The notes under the pieces were generated by a model, which was given only the letters and a program-made list of their open reading frames with translations, was not told the DNA's origin and did not search any database. Made by a program: the position numbers and the translations under genes. Of a stretch of 64,000 nt of DNA, positions 39,778-48,460 are shown in pieces (position 1 is the first letter of the stretch; the number at the start of each line of letters is the position of its first letter). This DNA is from Algoriphagus ratkowskyi. GTDB lineage: Bacteria; Bacteroidota; Bacteroidia; Cytophagales; Cyclobacteriaceae. The stretch is from the NCBI RefSeq assembly GCF_002150505.1, contig NZ_MSSV01000001.1, forward strand, positions 62,001-126,000. The letters are read 5' to 3'.

Positions 39778-41919
39778 ATGATTGAAAAAGATAAGGCGCA
39801 AAATAATGCCACAAACCCAAAAATTGATGATCTCAAAATGAATTTGGAAGATGGGGCAGGTCAGCCTCTGACGACAAACCAAGGTTTGAAAATCAATGAT
39901 GATCAAAATTCTTTGTTAGCAGGAGAGAGAGGTCCGACACTATTGGAGGATTTTCACTTTCGAGAGAAAATGACTCATTTTGATCACGAGCGTATACCTG
40001 AACGAATAGTTCATGCTAGAGGATCTGGTGCGCATGGATACTTCGAGTCATACGGTGATTTATCAGAATTTACTAAAGCAGGTTTTTTGAATAGTAAAGG
40101 CAAAAGAACTCCGGTATTTACTCGCTTTAGTACGGTAGCTGGATCTAAAGGATCTACCGATTTGCCTAGAGATGTGCGTGGATTTTCTGTCAAATTTTAC
40201 ACAGAGGAAGGCATTTATGATTTTGTAGGCAACAATATGCCGGTATTCTTCATACAGGATGCTATGAAATTTCCTGATTTGGTTCACGCCATAAAGCCAG
40301 AACCAAACAATGAAATTCCCCAAGCAGCTTCGGCTCACGATACGTTCTGGGATTTTATCTCACTAATGCCGGAAAGCATGCACATGATTATGTGGGCAAT
40401 GAGTGATCGCGCGTTACCGCGGAGTTTGACAATGATGGAAGGGTTTGGCGTTCACACCTACAGATTTGTGAGCGAATCAGGAAAATCATCTTTCGTTAAA
40501 TTCCATTGGAAACCAGTTGCGGGTACACACTCGGTCACATGGGATGAGGCACAGAAAATCTCTGGCCAAGATCCTGATTTCCATAGAAGAGATCTTTGGA
40601 ATGCTATCGAAAATGGCAATTTTCCAGAATGGGAATTTGGCGTTCAGATTGTACCAGAAGAGGACGAATTTAAGTTCGACTTTGACTTGTTGGATCCTAC
40701 TAAGCTTATTCCTGAAGAATTGGTACCAGTGAGACTGATTGGAAAAATGGTGCTAAACAGAAATCCTGAAAATTTCTTTGCCGAAACAGAACAAGTTGCA
40801 TTCCACCCAGGACATGTAGTGCCTGGCATTGACTTTACAAATGATCCATTGCTTCAGGGTAGATTATTTTCTTACACAGATACACAGCTTTCCAGATTGG
40901 GTGGACCTAATTTTCATGAGATTCCGATCAACCGATCTGTCGCGCCTGTGCACAACAATCAACGAGGAGGTATTGCACGTCAGGCTATAAATAAGGGACA
41001 AACTAGCTACAGCCCAAATAGCCTAGGCGGTGGATGTCCATTCCAGTCCAAGATGGCCGAAGGCGGATTCACGCATCATCAAGAACGTGTGGAAGGTCAT
41101 AAAATCCGTACAAGAAGTAAAAGTTTTATGGATCATTTCTCCCAAGCAAAACTTTTCTTTGAGAGTCAGACTAAGGTAGAGCAGGATCATATGGTGGAAG
41201 CACTAAGGTTTGAACTTGGAAAGGTGACCATAGAAGAAATTCGTGAGAGAATCGTCGGTATGCTAACCTACATTAATGAGGAGCTAGCTCAAAAAGTTGC
41301 TAAGGGTCTCGGTATAGAAAATATTAAAAAACCTGAGAAACCATTGAATCATAGCTTTGGGGCAGATGCAAATCCGGAAGATTATCAGCCTACAGAAGTT
41401 AAGAAATCAATCGAGAAATCTCCTAAGTTAAGTTTGATGGCTTCCCCCGGTAAAGGTATTAAGGGAAGGGTTGTAGCCATTTTGGCAAATGATGGAGTAG
41501 ATGTAGCAAGTGTAAATTCTTACATGGCAGCTTTCAAAAAAGAAGGTGCGGAAGGTAAAGTAATCAGTTTGCACGCCGGAATGATTAGTGGATCAAATGG
41601 AGAGAAGATTAAAGTGGATCATAGCATTTTGACTACAGCTTCAGTGCTATTTGACGGTGTTGTGATTCCTGGCGGTGAAAAAAGTATCGATGCGCTAAGT
41701 GCAGATGCTGATATTATCCGCTTCGTAGATGAAAGTTATAAGCATTTCAAATTTATCGCCTATCAGGGTGATGCGAAGAAGCTTTGGGATAAAACATACG
41801 CCTCTAGAAATCAGAATGCAAAAGGTGTTCTTGTGGACAAGAGCCCACAAGATTACGTTTCCGCTCTGGAAAAGCATAGAATTTGGGAGCGTGAGGATGC
41901 CCAGCAAATTCCAGTTTAA
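39778..41919 (+). CDS. katE: Large-subunit catalase with C-terminal DJ-1/PfpI-like domain (HPII type)
   Basis: Heme catalase that removes hydrogen peroxide (713 aa). The distal histidine is in ERIVHARGSGAHG (His79). The FTRFSTVAGSKGS block and the proximal heme tyrosine in RLFSYTDTQLSRLG follow. After residue ~555 a flavodoxin-like domain begins (GRVVAILANDGVDVASV, FDGVVIPGGEKSIDAL, KFIAYQGDAKKLW), which marks clade 2 catalases such as E. coli HPII. A terminator follows directly. Confidence 0.95.
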   Translation: MIEKDKAQNNATNPKIDDLKMNLEDGAGQPLTTNQGLKINDDQNSLLAGERGPTLLEDFHFREKMTHFDHERIPERIVHARGSGAHGYFESYGDLSEFTKAGFLNSKGKRTPVFTRFSTVAGSKGSTDLPRDVRGFSVKFYTEEGIYDFVGNNMPVFFIQDAMKFPDLVHAIKPEPNNEIPQAASAHDTFWDFISLMPESMHMIMWAMSDRALPRSLTMMEGFGVHTYRFVSESGKSSFVKFHWKPVAGTHSVTWDEAQKISGQDPDFHRRDLWNAIENGNFPEWEFGVQIVPEEDEFKFDFDLLDPTKLIPEELVPVRLIGKMVLNRNPENFFAETEQVAFHPGHVVPGIDFTNDPLLQGRLFSYTDTQLSRLGGPNFHEIPINRSVAPVHNNQRGGIARQAINKGQTSYSPNSLGGGCPFQSKMAEGGFTHHQERVEGHKIRTRSKSFMDHFSQAKLFFESQTKVEQDHMVEALRFELGKVTIEEIRERIVGMLTYINEELAQKVAKGLGIENIKKPEKPLNHSFGADANPEDYQPTEVKKSIEKSPKLSLMASPGKGIKGRVVAILANDGVDVASVNSYMAAFKKEGAEGKVISLHAGMISGSNGEKIKVDHSILTTASVLFDGVVIPGGEKSIDALSADADIIRFVDESYKHFKFIAYQGDAKKLWDKTYASRNQNAKGVLVDKSPQDYVSALEKHRIWEREDAQQIPV

Positions 41920-41924
41920 TACAG

Positions 41925-41959
41925 ATGCAGGCGATCAAAATGAATCGCCTGCATTTTTT
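41925..41959 (+). terminator. Terminator after katE
   Basis: ATGCAGGCGAT pairs perfectly with ATCGCCTGCAT (11 bp, 8-base loop) and is followed by a T run. It starts 5 bases after the catalase stop. Confidence 0.88.
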
Positions 41960-41973
41960 AATACGATTAACGC

Positions 41974-42474
41974 ATGGATATTCAACACTTTATTATAACT
42001 ATTCTATCGGGTATGGCTGGCACGATTGCTATGACCCTGATAATTTATATTTATGCCTATATAAGTCAGAACTTCACTAAGGTCGTCCATATTCTAGGCA
42101 ATATGTTAGTGGGGGAACGTAACTTCTACACACCAACTAATAATGCATTTGTAGTAGGAACTATTGCACATTTTTCCGTCGGTATACTCTTTTCTTTCGC
42201 ATACTTTCTACTTTGGAATTGGGGCGTATTCCAAATTGACCTGAAGGATTCTATTTTGATAGGAGTGACAAGTGGTATTTTGGCTATACTAGTGTGGAAA
42301 GGTTATCTAAGTCTTCATTCGAATCCACCTACTTTCTCCCACCTACATTACTTTATAGCACTATTTATAGCCCACATCGTATTTGCTGTCGTAAGTGTTA
42401 GTGTTTTCCAATTGATTACAGATAGTCCTGAGTTATGGTATCAGCTCCAGGATAAAGCCAAGCTCTCCATATGA
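41974..42474 (+). CDS. Four-helix membrane protein of unknown function
   Basis: No family recognised. The 166-aa product has four hydrophobic segments (about 6-30, 63-83, 93-108 and 122-147). Polar features are a conserved-looking FYTPTNNAFVVGTIAHFSVG stretch and several histidines near the membrane (HSNPP, HLHYF). It overlaps the M23 peptidase gene by 4 bases (ATGA), so the two are coupled and may share an envelope function. Confidence 0.68.
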   Translation: MDIQHFIITILSGMAGTIAMTLIIYIYAYISQNFTKVVHILGNMLVGERNFYTPTNNAFVVGTIAHFSVGILFSFAYFLLWNWGVFQIDLKDSILIGVTSGILAILVWKGYLSLHSNPPTFSHLHYFIALFIAHIVFAVVSVSVFQLITDSPELWYQLQDKAKLSI

Positions 42475-43778
42475 ATAGCATCAAACATATACTCACTCTT
42501 TTTATTATTGTTTGCATTTTTTTCACTTCATGTAACAATCAGACTTTACGGATTTTTAAATCCAGTTCTGCCCGAACCCAATATACAAATACCCTGAATA
42601 GCTCTGGGATTGGCGCTACAAAAATCGGTTTAGAATGGAAGAACTCAGCAAATGAGTCGATCTTAAAGGCTCCCGATCTTGCTGTTCCCGTCTCAATTCA
42701 AGGAAGTTTTAAGTCCAAAAGTATTGAAGCAAAAGCTTGGAAGATCAAGTTAGAGCAAGGTTCGTCAGTAAATATTTTTGTAAACTGGCAAGCGAGTGAT
42801 AGTAGCAAATTGATTGTGGATTTATTGGAAGGGTCCGAGTGGAAAGAATTAGAATCTTTCACTATACAAAGTGACTCATTGAAATTTGAGGCGGAAAAAT
42901 CGGGAAGCTACTTGCTTCGACTTCAGCCTGAATTACTTGGAGAAGGGAACTTTCAGATCAAAATAAGTGGTACTGCTACTTACGCTGTGTTTCCAGTTCA
43001 GGGAAAAAATAGCGCTGCTATCCAAAGTGTGTGGGGTGATGTACGAGATGGAGGTCAAAGATCACATGAGGGAGTTGATATATTTGCAACTCGTGGCACG
43101 CCTGTATTGGCACCTGTCGCGGGAGTAGTTACAGCCGTTCGGGATAGAGGTTTGGGAGGAAAACAGGTTTGGGTTCGAGATCCTGAGAGAGATTGGAATC
43201 TTTATTTTGCGCACTTGGATACTCAGCTTGTAAGCAATTTACAACGCGTAAATCCTGGAGACACTTTAGGTTTGGTGGGGAATACCGGTAACGCTCGCAC
43301 GACGGCTCCACATCTTCATTTTGGTATATATCAAAATGGTGCTATTAACCCTTTTCCAGCTATTGAAGATAGGTTTAAAGCAGCACCTGAACTCAAAGCC
43401 GAGGAGCTACCACATCTAATGAAAGTTGGGACAAACCAAGCTAAAATGAGGCGTGAGCCATCTACCAATTCAGATGTGATATCTACACTTAAATTAGATA
43501 TGATTATAATTACAGTAGCAGCTACAGCAGATTGGTATCAAGTAGAAACTATGACTGGCGAAATTGGATTCTTACACAGGAATTTAGTTGCGGCTAGCGA
43601 GTTTACTTCACTAGAATCCAAATTAAGCTATGCTTTCAGTAGCCCGATTTCTAATGCTGACAGCTTATATGTGAATTTGGAAGAATTTAATGTGATAGGA
43701 GAGGCACTGCCAGGTTACAATTTAATTGTAGATATGGATGGAAACTTACTTTACCTACGTTCTTCCACATCAAAATAA
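42471..43778 (+). CDS. M23 family metallopeptidase lipoprotein with SH3 domain
   Basis: Envelope peptidase of the LytM type (435 aa), probably acting on peptidoglycan peptides. The lipoprotein signal ends in FFTSC. The N-terminal domain (about 30-175) looks like a strand-rich accessory module. Zinc ligands are in RSHEGVDIFATRG (His ~199, Asp ~203) and HLHFG near 280. An SH3b-like segment follows (about 312-375, MRREPSTNSDVISTL, GEIGFLHRNLVA). It is coupled to the preceding membrane protein gene. Confidence 0.88.
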   Translation: MNSIKHILTLFIIVCIFFTSCNNQTLRIFKSSSARTQYTNTLNSSGIGATKIGLEWKNSANESILKAPDLAVPVSIQGSFKSKSIEAKAWKIKLEQGSSVNIFVNWQASDSSKLIVDLLEGSEWKELESFTIQSDSLKFEAEKSGSYLLRLQPELLGEGNFQIKISGTATYAVFPVQGKNSAAIQSVWGDVRDGGQRSHEGVDIFATRGTPVLAPVAGVVTAVRDRGLGGKQVWVRDPERDWNLYFAHLDTQLVSNLQRVNPGDTLGLVGNTGNARTTAPHLHFGIYQNGAINPFPAIEDRFKAAPELKAEELPHLMKVGTNQAKMRREPSTNSDVISTLKLDMIIITVAATADWYQVETMTGEIGFLHRNLVAASEFTSLESKLSYAFSSPISNADSLYVNLEEFNVIGEALPGYNLIVDMDGNLLYLRSSTSK

Positions 43779-43940: not shown

Positions 43941-44267
43941 ATGTTGCTTTTAACTAAGGAAATCAGAAAAGCTATGAAAACTAATAAGCCAGAAAACGAA
44001 AAAAGTCTTAAGGATAAAACCACTGAGGAACTTATCCAAGAAGCAAAAGTAACCAAAGAAGATCTTCAAGCTTTAGGGCCAAAAGATGCTAATTTAAGTC
44101 AGGACGGTGGAGATGATGAGCAACTTCTAGAAAGAAAGAGAAAAGTTGATTTCACTGGTGATGACCTAGATGTGCCAGGCAGTGAATTAGATGATGATCA
44201 GGAAAGAATTGGTTCAGAAGATGAGGAAAATAACTCTTATAGTAACGCAGACGAAGAGCAAAAATAA
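43941..44267 (+). CDS. Small acidic protein of unknown function, first gene of QEGLA/ATP-grasp operon
   Basis: The 108-aa frame has no signal peptide or membrane helix. A second ATG at 43974 (MKTNKPENEK) gives a shorter and perhaps better start. The N-terminal half is mixed-charge helix. The last ~40 residues are highly acidic, about 40% Asp/Glu (DLDVPGSELDDDQERIGSED and beyond), and so probably disordered. The stop shares one base with the start of the metallopeptidase (TAATG at 44265-44269), so the two are coupled. I have a vague memory of similar acidic proteins elsewhere in Bacteroidota; the function is unknown. Confidence 0.7.
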   Translation: MLLLTKEIRKAMKTNKPENEKSLKDKTTEELIQEAKVTKEDLQALGPKDANLSQDGGDDEQLLERKRKVDFTGDDLDVPGSELDDDQERIGSEDEENNSYSNADEEQK

Positions 44268-46102
44268 TGATCGATAAAGAGACGAAGGAAGCACTTACTC
44301 ATGCCCTGAAAACAGGGAAAGTTCTTAATCTTTCCCTAGGGGGAATCAACCGATTAAGGATAGAACGACGTCTACCTTTTCTTTTGATCTATCGTGAAGA
44401 AAAACAACACCATTTTAAGATTCCTGATTTGGTGAAAATGGAATCTTCCTATCTTATCACGGAAGCCAGCACAGATTTCAATTCTGACATTGCAATTCTT
44501 GCCAAGGATTTGGCAAAGGAAATTGCAGAGGAATATGGTTCTGTGATGGTATTAGAAGTTTGGATTGGAAAACCAGAAAGTAAAACTTTTGTGCTCAAAA
44601 CAGCAAAAGAAAAAGCTCCTAATACGGTCAAAGCATTGCAAGATGGATTAGTACAGTTTTGTCAAACTCATCCAGAATTGAATGTAGTCGTGGAGGAAAC
44701 TGGAATTCGTCATCCTGATCACTTGGCAGATTTCCTTACAATAAAACAATGTCAAGAATCGGGTATTTACCTGATGGGGTTGGAGATCCCTCCATTCTTT
44801 CAGAATCATGACAGTAAAGAATTTTATTACTTGGTTTTTAAAGCATTCAAACTTGCTTTTTCAGGTATTCTTAGAAAATCTGTTTATGAGTTCATACGTG
44901 TTCAGACCTCATTTGATATTCAGAATTATCAACGATTGGGTAGCACTATGGTCGATGATAAAGTATGGGAAGTAGATCGACGCCTCTCAGAAATTGAGGC
45001 TAAATATCAGTTCCTCCTTCTTATTTCTCCTGTGAATACTATGCAGGCTAAGGAGGAGTTCACTGCCAATAATTTTACTAAAAATCCGAAATTTCTTTAC
45101 CGTAATTTACCTATAGATCCTGATCGATTGAAGGAAGAATTGTTTCGGATTGACATCCAAGGAATTGAAGACCCTACACTCTCTTTTCTCTATACAGAAA
45201 AGCGTGAAGAGTTGGAAAAGCAGATCACTATGCTTAAAGAGCGGGGTACGAAGAACTTTATGTACAGCAGCATTCGCTTGTACAGTTCTCCCGGAGTTGA
45301 GCTTTATGAAACTGCAAAGCATATTCTGAAAACCCTTCCTCCTGATCATTTTGAAGAAATAGAATGGATTGATGCATACGATATGGCGAAATATTGTGCG
45401 TCAGAAATTGAGCAATACAGAGAAAGCTTTCCAGATTTAGATGCTAAAGTGGAGGTGAAAAATGACATTGTAGGAATGCTCGTCTCTAGAGGCCAACTCT
45501 ACATTGGTTCAAGTTTCAAAATTCCAAAGCAAAGAATCAAAGCCTTGGTTCATCATGAAATTGGTACGCACGTACTTACTTTTTATAATGGGAAGATGCA
45601 GTCTTTTGGACAGATGAGCAGTGGATTTGCAGATTATGATGAACTGCAGGAAGGGCTTGCTGTCTTAGCTGAATACCTCGTCGGAGGACTTACCAATAAC
45701 AGACTACGAACCCTAGCTGCGCGAGTGATCGCCGGTAGAGCAGTGACAGAAGGTATGACTTTCGAAGAGACTTATCATGCCCTTACTGAAGAATACAATG
45801 CATCACCAGAGCAGGCGTTTCAGATTACAGCTCGAACTTATCAAGGAGGAGGCTGCACCAAAGACATTATTTATCTCAGGGGCTTGATCAAGCTCATCGA
45901 ATATTTGCAGAATGAAGGCGATTTGGAATCGCTTTATGTAGGGAAAATTGGCTTCAAGCATATTCCCCTAATTCAAGAATTACGCATACGAGATATTATT
46001 AAACCATCTCCACTCATTCCTAGCTTTCTCAAAACAGATTTTGCACAGGAGCGATTGAAAAAATTAAAGGATGGACTGACATTATCAGAACTAGTTAATT
46101 AA
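44267..46102 (+). CDS. QEGLA-motif metallopeptidase-like protein (DUF1704, MATCAP-related)
   Basis: A 611-aa protein of the family named 'flavohemoglobin expression-modulating QEGLA motif protein'. Zinc-peptidase residues HHEIGTH (His430-Glu431, His435) give an HExxxH site, and DELQEGLAVLAEYLVGG (Gln461 on) gives the name motif. The eukaryotic relatives (KIAA0895/MATCAP) are tubulin C-terminal tyrosine carboxypeptidases; bacterial substrates are not known to me. No signal peptide, so cytoplasmic. Upstream it is coupled to an acidic small protein; 19 bases downstream is an ATP-grasp ligase gene. Confidence 0.86.
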   Translation: MIDKETKEALTHALKTGKVLNLSLGGINRLRIERRLPFLLIYREEKQHHFKIPDLVKMESSYLITEASTDFNSDIAILAKDLAKEIAEEYGSVMVLEVWIGKPESKTFVLKTAKEKAPNTVKALQDGLVQFCQTHPELNVVVEETGIRHPDHLADFLTIKQCQESGIYLMGLEIPPFFQNHDSKEFYYLVFKAFKLAFSGILRKSVYEFIRVQTSFDIQNYQRLGSTMVDDKVWEVDRRLSEIEAKYQFLLLISPVNTMQAKEEFTANNFTKNPKFLYRNLPIDPDRLKEELFRIDIQGIEDPTLSFLYTEKREELEKQITMLKERGTKNFMYSSIRLYSSPGVELYETAKHILKTLPPDHFEEIEWIDAYDMAKYCASEIEQYRESFPDLDAKVEVKNDIVGMLVSRGQLYIGSSFKIPKQRIKALVHHEIGTHVLTFYNGKMQSFGQMSSGFADYDELQEGLAVLAEYLVGGLTNNRLRTLAARVIAGRAVTEGMTFEETYHALTEEYNASPEQAFQITARTYQGGGCTKDIIYLRGLIKLIEYLQNEGDLESLYVGKIGFKHIPLIQELRIRDIIKPSPLIPSFLKTDFAQERLKKLKDGLTLSELVN

Positions 46103-46121
46103 ACCACTAATCACAAAAAAA

Positions 46122-47165
46122 ATGAAGATTGGATTTGTAGTAAACCAAATAGAAACCGAGACTGGAGGATATAGTACCACACAACTTTCCTCAGCAGCTG
46201 TACATCGCGGGCATGAAGTTTACCTTATCAGCGTAGGTCAGCTATGCTACCTCGAAGATGGTAAGATGGGAGCTATAGCAATAAAAGCCCCAACTACTAA
46301 GTTCCGAAGTTTGGATAAATACATGGAGGCGATCCACAGCCCAGAAGCAGAACGCATGCATATCTCCACAGACGATTTAGATGTGCTTTTCCTTCGAAAT
46401 AATCCTTGTGAAGAATTTGGGGAAAGAGCCTGGGCTCAAACCGCAGGTATGGTTTTCGGTCAGGTCGCTAGCGTAAATGGAGTGTTAGTGGTAAACGATC
46501 CTTATGCGTTAATGTCTTCATTCAACAAGATGTATTTCCAGCATTTTCCTGAGGCTGTAAGGCCTAGAACAATCATCAGTCGGGATGCTGATGAGATCAA
46601 AACATTCTACAAGAAAGAGAAGAAGAAGATTATTTTGAAACCACTGCAAGGTTCTGGCGGAAAGGATGTTTTCTTAGTGGATAACGATAAAAATCTTAAT
46701 CAGATTGTGGAAACGATCAATCGCTATGGGTTTGTGATTGCTCAGGAATATTTGCCTGCTGCCAAAAACGGTGATATACGAGTAATCATGATGAATGGAA
46801 AAATCCTCGAAATAAACGGAAAAGTAGCAGCTGTGAATAGAGTTAACAACAACGATATTCGAAGTAATCTACACTCTGGAGGCCAAGCCATTCGTGCAGA
46901 AATTACCGACGATGTGCGAAGATTGTGTGAGATCGTTGGCCCTAAATTGGTGCAAGACGGAATGTTCCTAGCAGGAATTGACATTGTTGGCGACAAAATC
47001 ATGGAGCTAAATCTAGATAGCCCTGGTACAATCAATGCCATGCACAGACTTGAAGGTGAAGATTTCTCATCTGCCATTATTGATTCACTAGAGAAGAAAG
47101 TGGAATACCAAAAGCACTACGATGGTACTTTACCAAATGCTTTCTTGGCAACTATGAATCTTTAG
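46122..47165 (+). CDS. GshB-like ATP-grasp ligase
   Basis: ATP-grasp enzyme (347 aa) that forms a C-N bond through an acyl phosphate. Visible parts are an N-terminal GshB-like pre-ATP-grasp domain (FVVNQIETETGGYSTTQLS), KIILKPLQGSGGKDVF (ATP lysine loop, near 170), IAQEYLPAAKNGDIRVI, and GIDIVGDKIMELNLDSPGT (metal site). It resembles glutathione synthetase, but no gamma-glutamylcysteine ligase gene is in view, so glutathione synthesis is not established. Its place after the QEGLA metallopeptidase suggests an amino-acid or peptide ligation that the peptidase could reverse. Confidence 0.85.
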   Translation: MKIGFVVNQIETETGGYSTTQLSSAAVHRGHEVYLISVGQLCYLEDGKMGAIAIKAPTTKFRSLDKYMEAIHSPEAERMHISTDDLDVLFLRNNPCEEFGERAWAQTAGMVFGQVASVNGVLVVNDPYALMSSFNKMYFQHFPEAVRPRTIISRDADEIKTFYKKEKKKIILKPLQGSGGKDVFLVDNDKNLNQIVETINRYGFVIAQEYLPAAKNGDIRVIMMNGKILEINGKVAAVNRVNNNDIRSNLHSGGQAIRAEITDDVRRLCEIVGPKLVQDGMFLAGIDIVGDKIMELNLDSPGTINAMHRLEGEDFSSAIIDSLEKKVEYQKHYDGTLPNAFLATMNL

Positions 47166-47201: not shown

Positions 47202-47245
47202 AACTGCCTCCGTTCGTGAATAATGAATGGAGGCAGTTGTTTTAT
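47202..47245 (+). terminator. Terminator after the ATP-grasp operon
   Basis: AACTGCCTCCGTTC pairs with GAATGGAGGCAGTT over 14 positions with one wobble, followed by T-rich sequence. Confidence 0.8.
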
Positions 47246-47515: not shown

Positions 47516-48460
47516 TCACGCTGGTTTTACGATAAAATAGCCGTCTGATCCTTGTGTCTGATATAGCGGAAGGAAGACTCGGCCATCGGTATCTGAAACA
47601 AGCTCTTCTCCATCCAAAGAAGCCAAGCGCTGCCCTTTTGTAATTTCGGTGAAATTAGCGAAGCCTGGATCCATTTTAAATTTCTGCTTCTCACCAATCT
47701 CTTGTCTATAAGTCACCTCAAAATTATCATTGGTAGGAGAGGCTTTCTCTAGAAGTTCGAAAAAGTGGTCATAAGCAATTGCTGATTTTTCCAGCATTCC
47801 AGTTTCTACTAAAATTACCCAGATCGCTGCCTCATGATAATCCACTGATTTTGGGTCATCGTGCTGACCCGCTTCCATGGTGAAACCTGCATGTCCTTTC
47901 AACGTCTGATAATGGTCGAAATGACCTGGTATATATTTTTCAATTCCTTTCACAACAGGCAGTGGCATCTGCTTCGCAAAAGCAAAACTGTCCTCACGGC
48001 GATTTACGCTGATGTAGGGTGCCGTACTGGATGACGTAGTGTGCAAATCCATAAAATGAAATTCGGTGTTACATCTTTCGTTTTCTAGTTTCTCGACGAT
48101 AGCAAGCAACTCATTAAACTCTGAAGCCTCATGAAAGTCAAGTGTCTTTCCTTCTTTTAAATGCTTTTCATTCTCCAGCGTGCAAACCCTGTTTAGATCC
48201 TTGTCAATCAGGCGCACTCCTTTCTTCAAAGCAGCAATATTTCCAGCCACTCCTACCAATTTTCCTTTCAACTCTGGTTTACTCTCTTGAAGTTTCTTGA
48301 AGACCCGTTGCAAAGCTAGAACGCCGCTCGGCTCATTTCCATGGACTCCACCGCTTATAAGTAAGTAGGGGCCGGAAGTTTGATTTGTTGGTTCGTTAGG
48401 ATAATCACCGAGTACTCGGGTAAGATTTTCTGAGTCTATTATTTCAGTGTTAGAATTCAT
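47516..48460 (-). CDS. Succinylglutamate desuccinylase/aspartoacylase family protein
   Basis: Zinc amidohydrolase of the M14-like AstE/AspA family (314 aa). The metal site is ISGGVHGNEPSG (His40, Glu43), with the third ligand in FMDLHTTSSS near 130. The glutamate region is near 215 (EAAIWVILVETGML). Members remove acyl groups from amino acids such as N-acetylaspartate and N-succinylglutamate. No arginine-succinyl pathway genes are near. It faces the ATP-grasp ligase tail to tail, so a link is possible but is not by operon. Confidence 0.86.
   Translation of the reverse strand: MNSNTEIIDSENLTRVLGDYPNEPTNQTSGPYLLISGGVHGNEPSGVLALQRVFKKLQESKPELKGKLVGVAGNIAALKKGVRLIDKDLNRVCTLENEKHLKEGKTLDFHEASEFNELLAIVEKLENERCNTEFHFMDLHTTSSSTAPYISVNRREDSFAFAKQMPLPVVKGIEKYIPGHFDHYQTLKGHAGFTMEAGQHDDPKSVDYHEAAIWVILVETGMLEKSAIAYDHFFELLEKASPTNDNFEVTYRQEIGEKQKFKMDPGFANFTEITKGQRLASLDGEELVSDTDGRVFLPLYQTQGSDGYFIVKPA

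Follow-up and report, generated by a model that had tools for sequence, protein, structure and literature searches.

A MATCAP-type peptidase and a GshB-like ATP-grasp ligase form a conserved bacterial unit with an amide-cutting hydrolase: a possible ligate-and-trim module

Why does a bacterium carry a relative of the human peptidases that trim tubulin tails, and why is its gene followed so closely by that of an ATP-grasp ligase? The question is raised by an operon in a 64,000-nucleotide stretch of Algoriphagus ratkowskyi (contig NZ_MSSV01000001.1, positions 62,001 to 126,000), the whole of which is called the window here. Three genes on the same strand code for a small acidic protein, a MATCAP-type metallopeptidase and a GshB-like ligase, and the coordinates confirm that the first two overlap in TAATG and that 19 bases precede the third. 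A first-pass annotation of this DNA had proposed that the ligase and the peptidase build up and trim the acidic tail of the first protein or another substrate. Of this cycle, the ligase-peptidase pair has been strengthened as a conserved unit and the acidic protein has become a poor candidate for the substrate, which leaves another acceptor, or a peptide metabolite, as the candidates. We propose, with a probability of about 0.48, that the operon belongs to a module named "FMG", composed of an amide-cutting hydrolase, a MATCAP-type peptidase bearing a degenerate N-formylglutamate amidohydrolase (FGase) domain and a GshB-like ligase, which would add and remove residues in a way similar to RimB-RimK. 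The parts of this module in the window are as follows.

44267-46102, plus strand: MATCAP-type metallopeptidase (PF08014, QEGLA), 611 residues.
44339-44908, plus strand: N-terminal domain of the peptidase, residues 25-214, with the FGase fold and the D-x-H motif lost; a putative pseudo-enzyme.
45554-45571, plus strand: HEIGTH motif, residues 430-435 (H430, E431, H435), which contributes the metal site and the catalytic Glu.
45647-45661, plus strand: QEGLA motif, residues 461-465 (E462), probable third metal ligand and counterpart of the human EEG motif.
46122-47165, plus strand: GshB-like ATP-grasp ligase (PF02955), 347 residues.
47516-48460, minus strand: AstE/AspA-type hydrolase (PF24827), 314 residues, convergent to the operon and filling the slot that a standalone amidohydrolase occupies at other loci.

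The pairing of the peptidase with the ligase has been followed in two samples. Among 395 evenly drawn Bacteroidota genomes (assumed to be identical for the PF08014 scan and for the acidic-family scan described below), PF08014 is present in 19, and a GshB-like gene lies near the peptidase in 17 of the 18 loci other than the window, that is, in 18 of 19 with the window included. These 18 loci and the window were joined to the 80 best matches of a contig scan over many phyla, giving 99 peptidase loci at which the families were counted by running profiles on six-frame translations. The query of the contig scan was an alignment of mostly long peptidases, and its 80 loci are not independent: L036 and L070 are apparently one contig, and further near-copies are present among them. 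The ligase is found in 97 of the 99 loci; of the two that lack it, L141 is cut by a contig end and L021 has a divergent peptidase. When the ligase lies downstream on the same strand, the gap from the peptidase has a median of 2 bases and is 60 bases or less in 78 of 84 cases. The peptidases themselves come in two lengths, a long type of about 600-700 residues with an extra N-terminal domain and a short type of about 390-420 residues without it, and at the loci of the short type the ligase is located upstream instead (n=11 for ligases of the upstream type). Three loci (L027, L028 and L072, the last from Winogradskyella) have two different GshB-like ligases, which flank an FGase and a long MATCAP-type gene. 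Among six annotated plasmid loci, five show the gene order FGase, QEGLA protein, glutathione-synthase-like gene; the gene table of the sixth, a Pseudoalteromonas locus, is incomplete and shows a short MATCAP-type gene with neither FGase nor ligase. The MATCAP-type peptidase and the GshB-like ligase are a conserved unit, and the co-occurrence suspected from this single locus extends well beyond it.

The third conserved part of the module is an amide-cutting hydrolase, either an FGase or a protein of the AspA type, and not the acidic protein. An FGase of the PF05013 type is present in 51 of the 99 peptidase loci (standalone, and fused in L026) and an AstE/AspA relative in 38, so that one or the other accompanies the peptidase in 89 loci; the two are never found together (0/99), and 10 loci have neither, three of which (L108, L116 and L141) are cut by contig ends. 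In the even sample the figure is 18 of 19 loci, window counted. The window itself has the AspA-type form (E 4e-22 and 79.1 bits against PF24827, cut-off 25), coded beyond the interval 43941-47165 to which the first-pass annotation was confined, and no FGase was matched in its genome at an E of 0.001. The distribution of the AspA state calls for two changes on a quick MATCAP tree (96 rows), one of them at the contig-end-cut L141, which suggests that the exchange of FGase for AspA happened essentially once. Neither this conserved partner nor the degenerate domain of the peptidase had been noticed in the first-pass annotation.

The peptidase can be assigned by its family match and its predicted fold. 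Residues 263-599 match the Pfam family PF08014 (MATCAP) with an E of 4.1e-86 and 289.7 bits (cut-off 27), while the protein falls below the TIGR02421 QEGLA equivalog cut-off (321.6 vs 338.65 bits), which the Sinorhizobium meliloti member exceeds with 353.1. Its AlphaFold model has a pLDDT of 92.1 and a pTM of 0.85, and residues 250-611 of this predicted structure superpose on human MATCAP (7z5g) with a Z of 24.7 and a root-mean-square deviation (rmsd) of 3.0 over 291 aligned residues. The two motifs reported in the first annotation were located at residues 430-435 and 461-465; HEIGTH is identical in human MATCAP, E462 aligns with the human EEG motif, and H430, E431, H435 and E462 are invariant in an alignment of 42 peptidases (A5). 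The metal-site residues are kept. Among the matches listed, the closest named relative is the peptidase of Algoriphagus aquimarinus (74% identity). A study of the human enzymes describes MATCAP/TMCP as metallopeptidases with an HExxxH motif, in which the EEG motif supplies a putative third ligand, and which trim the C-termini of tubulin and shorten the posttranslational glutamate chains made by TTLLs (PMC10499314).

The long peptidases carry a second domain in front of the catalytic one. In the AlphaFold model, residues 25-214 resemble the FGase 2q7s (Z 12.8, rmsd 3.2, 176 aligned), and the profile of the N-terminal domains aligns with that of 22 standalone FGases in hhalign with an E of 7.3e-6 and a probability of 84; the Pfam FGase model (PF05013) matched none of 24 N-terminal domains of the window's kind at an E of 0.1. 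In the profile alignment, the position of the D-x-H motif of FGases is occupied by E-V-W in the window's domain, and by eye no His is seen there in any of 24 aligned N-terminal domains. At locus L026, a recognisable FGase is fused in the place of this domain. It looks like a degenerate amidohydrolase, and its role would be that of a binding or docking part.

Regarding the ligase, the first annotation had described it as a GshB-like ATP-grasp protein and had drawn a parallel with tubulin-tyrosine ligase (TTL). The former is borne out by the match to PF02955 (GSH-S_ATP, E 9.4e-50) and by its model (pLDDT 91.9), which fits GshB (1gsa) with a Z of 35.3 and an rmsd of 2.2 over 308 residues, and RimK (5zct) with a Z of 26.4 and an rmsd of 3.0 over 278. 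The latter finds no echo in Pfam, where six families were matched at an E of 0.01 and no model of tubulin-tyrosine ligases was among them; TTL chains are also missing from the 50 structure matches listed for the model, which excludes nothing. The protein scores under both glutathione-synthase cut-offs (217.5 vs 272 bits for PRK05246 and 202.5 vs 299.05 for TIGR01380), under the RimK cut-off (95.4 vs 143.4 for TIGR00768) and just under that of PRK12458 (406.4 vs 408), which all seven operon ligases tested from other loci pass. RimK-like motifs were also considered as a sign of RimK function and were dropped, being unevenly distributed over 36 ligases.

Starting from what has been observed on the module (the co-conservation and tight spacing of its genes, the folds as predicted, and a peptidase metal site whose residues are kept), the following mechanism can be proposed. 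The ligase would spend ATP on attaching an amino acid, in all likelihood an acidic one, to a carboxylate of a peptide or of the C-terminus of a protein, and the MATCAP-type enzyme would take C-terminal residues off again. The FGase or AspA enzyme would cleave an amide bond beyond the reach of a carboxypeptidase, such as a branch or an N-acyl link, and the degenerate domain might either dock the partner hydrolase or hold the substrate by its acyl-amino-acid end. The acceptor would be encoded outside the operon, and ligation would be balanced by trimming, as in RimB-RimK. A second setting with a similar set of enzymes is provided by rimK itself. In a survey of the 30 best of 39 rimK matches in 99 Bacteroidota genomes, with flanks of 1,500 bases, a rimB-like gene is beside or fused to rimK in 21 loci and an AspA-type gene adjoins it in 12, the AspA-type domain being confirmed by Pfam in the two cases tested. 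The association of an AspA-type hydrolase with an ATP-grasp amino-acid ligase is therefore recurrent. In those 12 loci (L191-L194, L196, L198-L204) the AspA-type gene is on one side of rimK and the rimB-like gene on the other, and its product may be a third enzyme in the modification of ribosomal protein S6. The genome of the window has a separate rimK (L162) beside a rimB-like gene.

The same pieces can be arranged into a bolder scheme by analogy with the tubulin code, namely a widespread bacterial protein-tail code in which the ligase would add residues, probably glutamate, to side chains or the C-terminus of some cellular protein, two dissimilar metal hydrolases (of the MATCAP and the FGase/AspA type) would erase them, and the dead amidohydrolase domain would steer the system as the reader of the substrate. 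We consider this full form unlikely; if true, it would be a bacterial counterpart of the tubulin glutamylation carried out with TTLL, CCP and MATCAP.

Several observations weigh against a ligate-and-trim function. The ligase model is closer to GshB, whose product is a small tripeptide, than to RimK, and among the seven operon ligases tested, two of the upstream type (L022 and L028) exceed the glutathione-synthase cut-off of PRK05246 as well. MATCAP-type genes without the ligase do exist, as seen in L021 and in the Pseudoalteromonas locus. Since the swap between the two hydrolases was essentially one event, their mutual exclusion does not amount to many independent observations. The AspA-type protein linked to rimK is just distantly like that of the window (27 residues at 41%). 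The FGase and AspA families take their names from small N-acyl amino acids, the kind of compound on which they act. Finally, genes for a rhodanese (4 loci) and for a DCC1-type thiol-disulfide oxidoreductase (10 loci, on the opposite strand) lie near some operons and hint at thiol chemistry.

These points feed the rival that survives best, which we regard as only somewhat less likely: a small-peptide pathway, in which the ligase would make a di- or tripeptide or an N-acyl peptide (an osmolyte, a thiol or something similar) and the hydrolases would recycle or deprotect it. It fits the GshB fold of the ligase, the action of FGase and AspA enzymes on N-acyl amino acids, and the thiol-related neighbours; in L027 and L072 it is the FGase gene that has the rhodanese-type gene upstream of it. 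At 11 loci (L022-L025, L027, L028, L030, L031, L072, L093 and L111) a gene of the sodium:dicarboxylate symporter type, a family named by Pfam on one member, L023, is found upstream on the same strand, which is in accordance with a metabolite and with the ligate-and-trim reading alike. In addition, in a low-salinity RNA-seq table, a QEGLA gene of Photobacterium damselae has a value of 27.51, taken as a fold change (PMC10308900). On the other hand, no further pathway enzyme travels along with the module: 40 neighbour clusters were listed over the 99 loci, and outside the module's four families none occurs in more than 11 loci, a result that equally reveals no recurring substrate gene. The closest solved relatives of the peptidase domain, moreover, are the human MATCAP proteins, which act on protein tails, and this too speaks against a small-peptide pathway. 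As for an acceptor, the neighbour families that Pfam could name, on one member each (dicarboxylate symporter, chorismate synthase, DCC1-type, rhodanese, asparagine synthase, CorA and lactonase), include no evident one. Anti-phage defence, another candidate, was rejected, PADLOC giving no match for four proteins.

A particular case of the metabolite idea is that the ligase carries out the last step of glutathione synthesis, while glutathione or its conjugates would be broken down by the hydrolases. Besides the GshB fold and the two upstream-type ligases that pass PRK05246, it could invoke the name of the PRK12458 subfamily, called glutathione synthetase by NCBI, and a GCS2-family gene in the window's genome, which could make gamma-Glu-Cys. 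The window's ligase is nevertheless short of both glutathione-synthase cut-offs, and by eye the GCS2 gene (L156) sits between an apparent ATP-grasp gene and a glutamine-amidotransferase-like gene. Evidence from a relative bears on the same point. In S. meliloti 2011, a mutant in gshB (SMc00419) is reported to lack glutathione, as validated by high-performance liquid chromatography (PMC7063052). A 1.68-Mb plasmid record of strain 2011 contains the operon at 99.1% identity to the pSymB query from another strain (hit H67). The mutant thus lacked glutathione despite the operon, which indicates that the operon ligase, if it was expressed at that time, was no stand-in for GshB under those conditions. 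The ligase is probably not a glutathione synthase, and glutathione metabolism is a very improbable function for the module as a whole. A demonstrated role for the module would also correct the annotations of plasmid members of the operon as glutathione synthase or synthetase, and as flavohemoglobin expression-modulating protein.

The acidic protein, from which the locus was first interpreted, is described together with the end of the operon by three further features.

43941-44267, plus strand: open reading frame of the small acidic protein as called, 108 residues; an adjoining gene outside the conserved module.
43974-44264, plus strand: the same protein from its likelier start, 97 residues, computed isoelectric point 4.2.
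47202-47238, plus strand: terminator-like hairpin of 16 pairs with a T-rich tail, a consensus match only.

The second start is preferred because the Met at residue 12 is invariant in the family alignment (22 sequences). Neither Pfam nor NCBIfam gave a match for the open reading frame at an E of 0.01. Its tail is acidic as described, with 16 Asp/Glu against 2 Lys/Arg in the final 40 residues. Across members, the conserved internal stretch reads DLDVPGSELDD...GSEDEENN.YS, with the variants DLD(V/I)PG(S/A)ELDD...GSEDEENN(Y/F)YS, and the C-terminal residues vary. The protein represents a recurring family of small Bacteroidota proteins (loci L039-L067). The first-pass annotation had named a common occurrence of the acidic protein without the enzymes as a finding that would count against its proposal, and this is what the genomes reveal: the family is present in 39 of the 395, and 34 of these are devoid of the PF08014 peptidase. 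The five genomes that hold both correspond to a slight co-occurrence (Fisher 0.03, uncorrected for kinship), and, the window's own genome apart, all four have the acidic gene and the peptidase gene on separate contigs. At the peptidase loci, the acidic gene adjoins the peptidase in just 2 of 99, the window and Algoriphagus aquimarinus, which makes the protein a poor candidate substrate. In the opposite direction, no profile match to the peptidase, the ligase, FGase or the AspA type was obtained in 12 stretches around acidic-family genes (the gene itself being recognised in 11). Despite the TAATG coupling in the window, the adjacency in A. aquimarinus and the slight genome-level association, the idea that the ligase and the peptidase act on the acidic tail is most improbable, given the protein's absence from 97 of the 99 peptidase loci and its variable C-terminus. 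The acidic protein looks like a local neighbour or passenger of the module.

On its other side, upstream and on the same strand (39778-43778), there are genes for an HPII-type catalase, a weakly DUF6789-like protein and an M23 peptidase with an SH3 domain. The hairpin downstream of the ligase could mark the end of the operon.

Each part of the module is a member of a known family, and operons joining a ligase to a peptidase are a known kind, of which RimABK and RloABC are examples. Among the papers listed in searches of the open-licence full-text literature, no description was seen of this operon combination, of the FGase/AspA exchange or of the hidden dead domain. A 2009 survey of amidoligases may have described the operon. 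With regard to GshB, the likeness is one of fold; the window's ligase differs in scoring below the glutathione-synthase cut-offs and its S. meliloti 2011 counterpart in not replacing GshB under the conditions reported. The RloABC system of Pseudomonas aeruginosa likewise unites in one operon a peptidase, an ATP-grasp protein and a protein that resembles an enzyme but is inactive, although it is made of secreted retropepsins and a membrane pseudo-transglutaminase, families unlike those found here; a P. aeruginosa strain without its three Rlo proteases is sensitive to low osmolarity and is rescued by the loss of the ATP-grasp protein RloC (PMC12239564). This rescue and the low-salinity figure of the Photobacterium QEGLA gene possibly share a link to osmotic stress.

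A eukaryotic parallel is the tubulin code, in which TTL/TTLL ligases are opposed by CCP and MATCAP/TMCP carboxypeptidases and what the ligases add is undone by MATCAPs. TTLLs are ATP-grasp enzymes and CCP belongs to the M14 family. The resemblance extends to a trimmer of the MATCAP fold with a HEIGTH plus EEG/QEG site, an ATP-grasp ligase and an M14-like second eraser; on the other hand, the bacterial module operates without tubulin, its ligase matches no Pfam TTL model, its peptidase has an extra degenerate FGase domain and the genes form a single operon. This comparison is of interest because it was as erasers of the tubulin code that the MATCAP enzymes were discovered, and the conserved pairing with a ligase and an amidohydrolase makes its bacterial role directly testable. 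The nearest bacterial parallel is RimB-RimK, in which the ligase adds glutamates to ribosomal protein S6 and the protease trims them (PMC11957791). Both systems couple an ATP-grasp ligase to a peptidase, which in RimB-RimK trims the product of the ligase; they differ in the ligase, which is GshB-like here, and in the supposed trimmer, a MATCAP-type metallopeptidase here and a retropepsin there. If the proposed function is true, the module would be a second bacterial ligate-and-trim system beside RimB-RimK.

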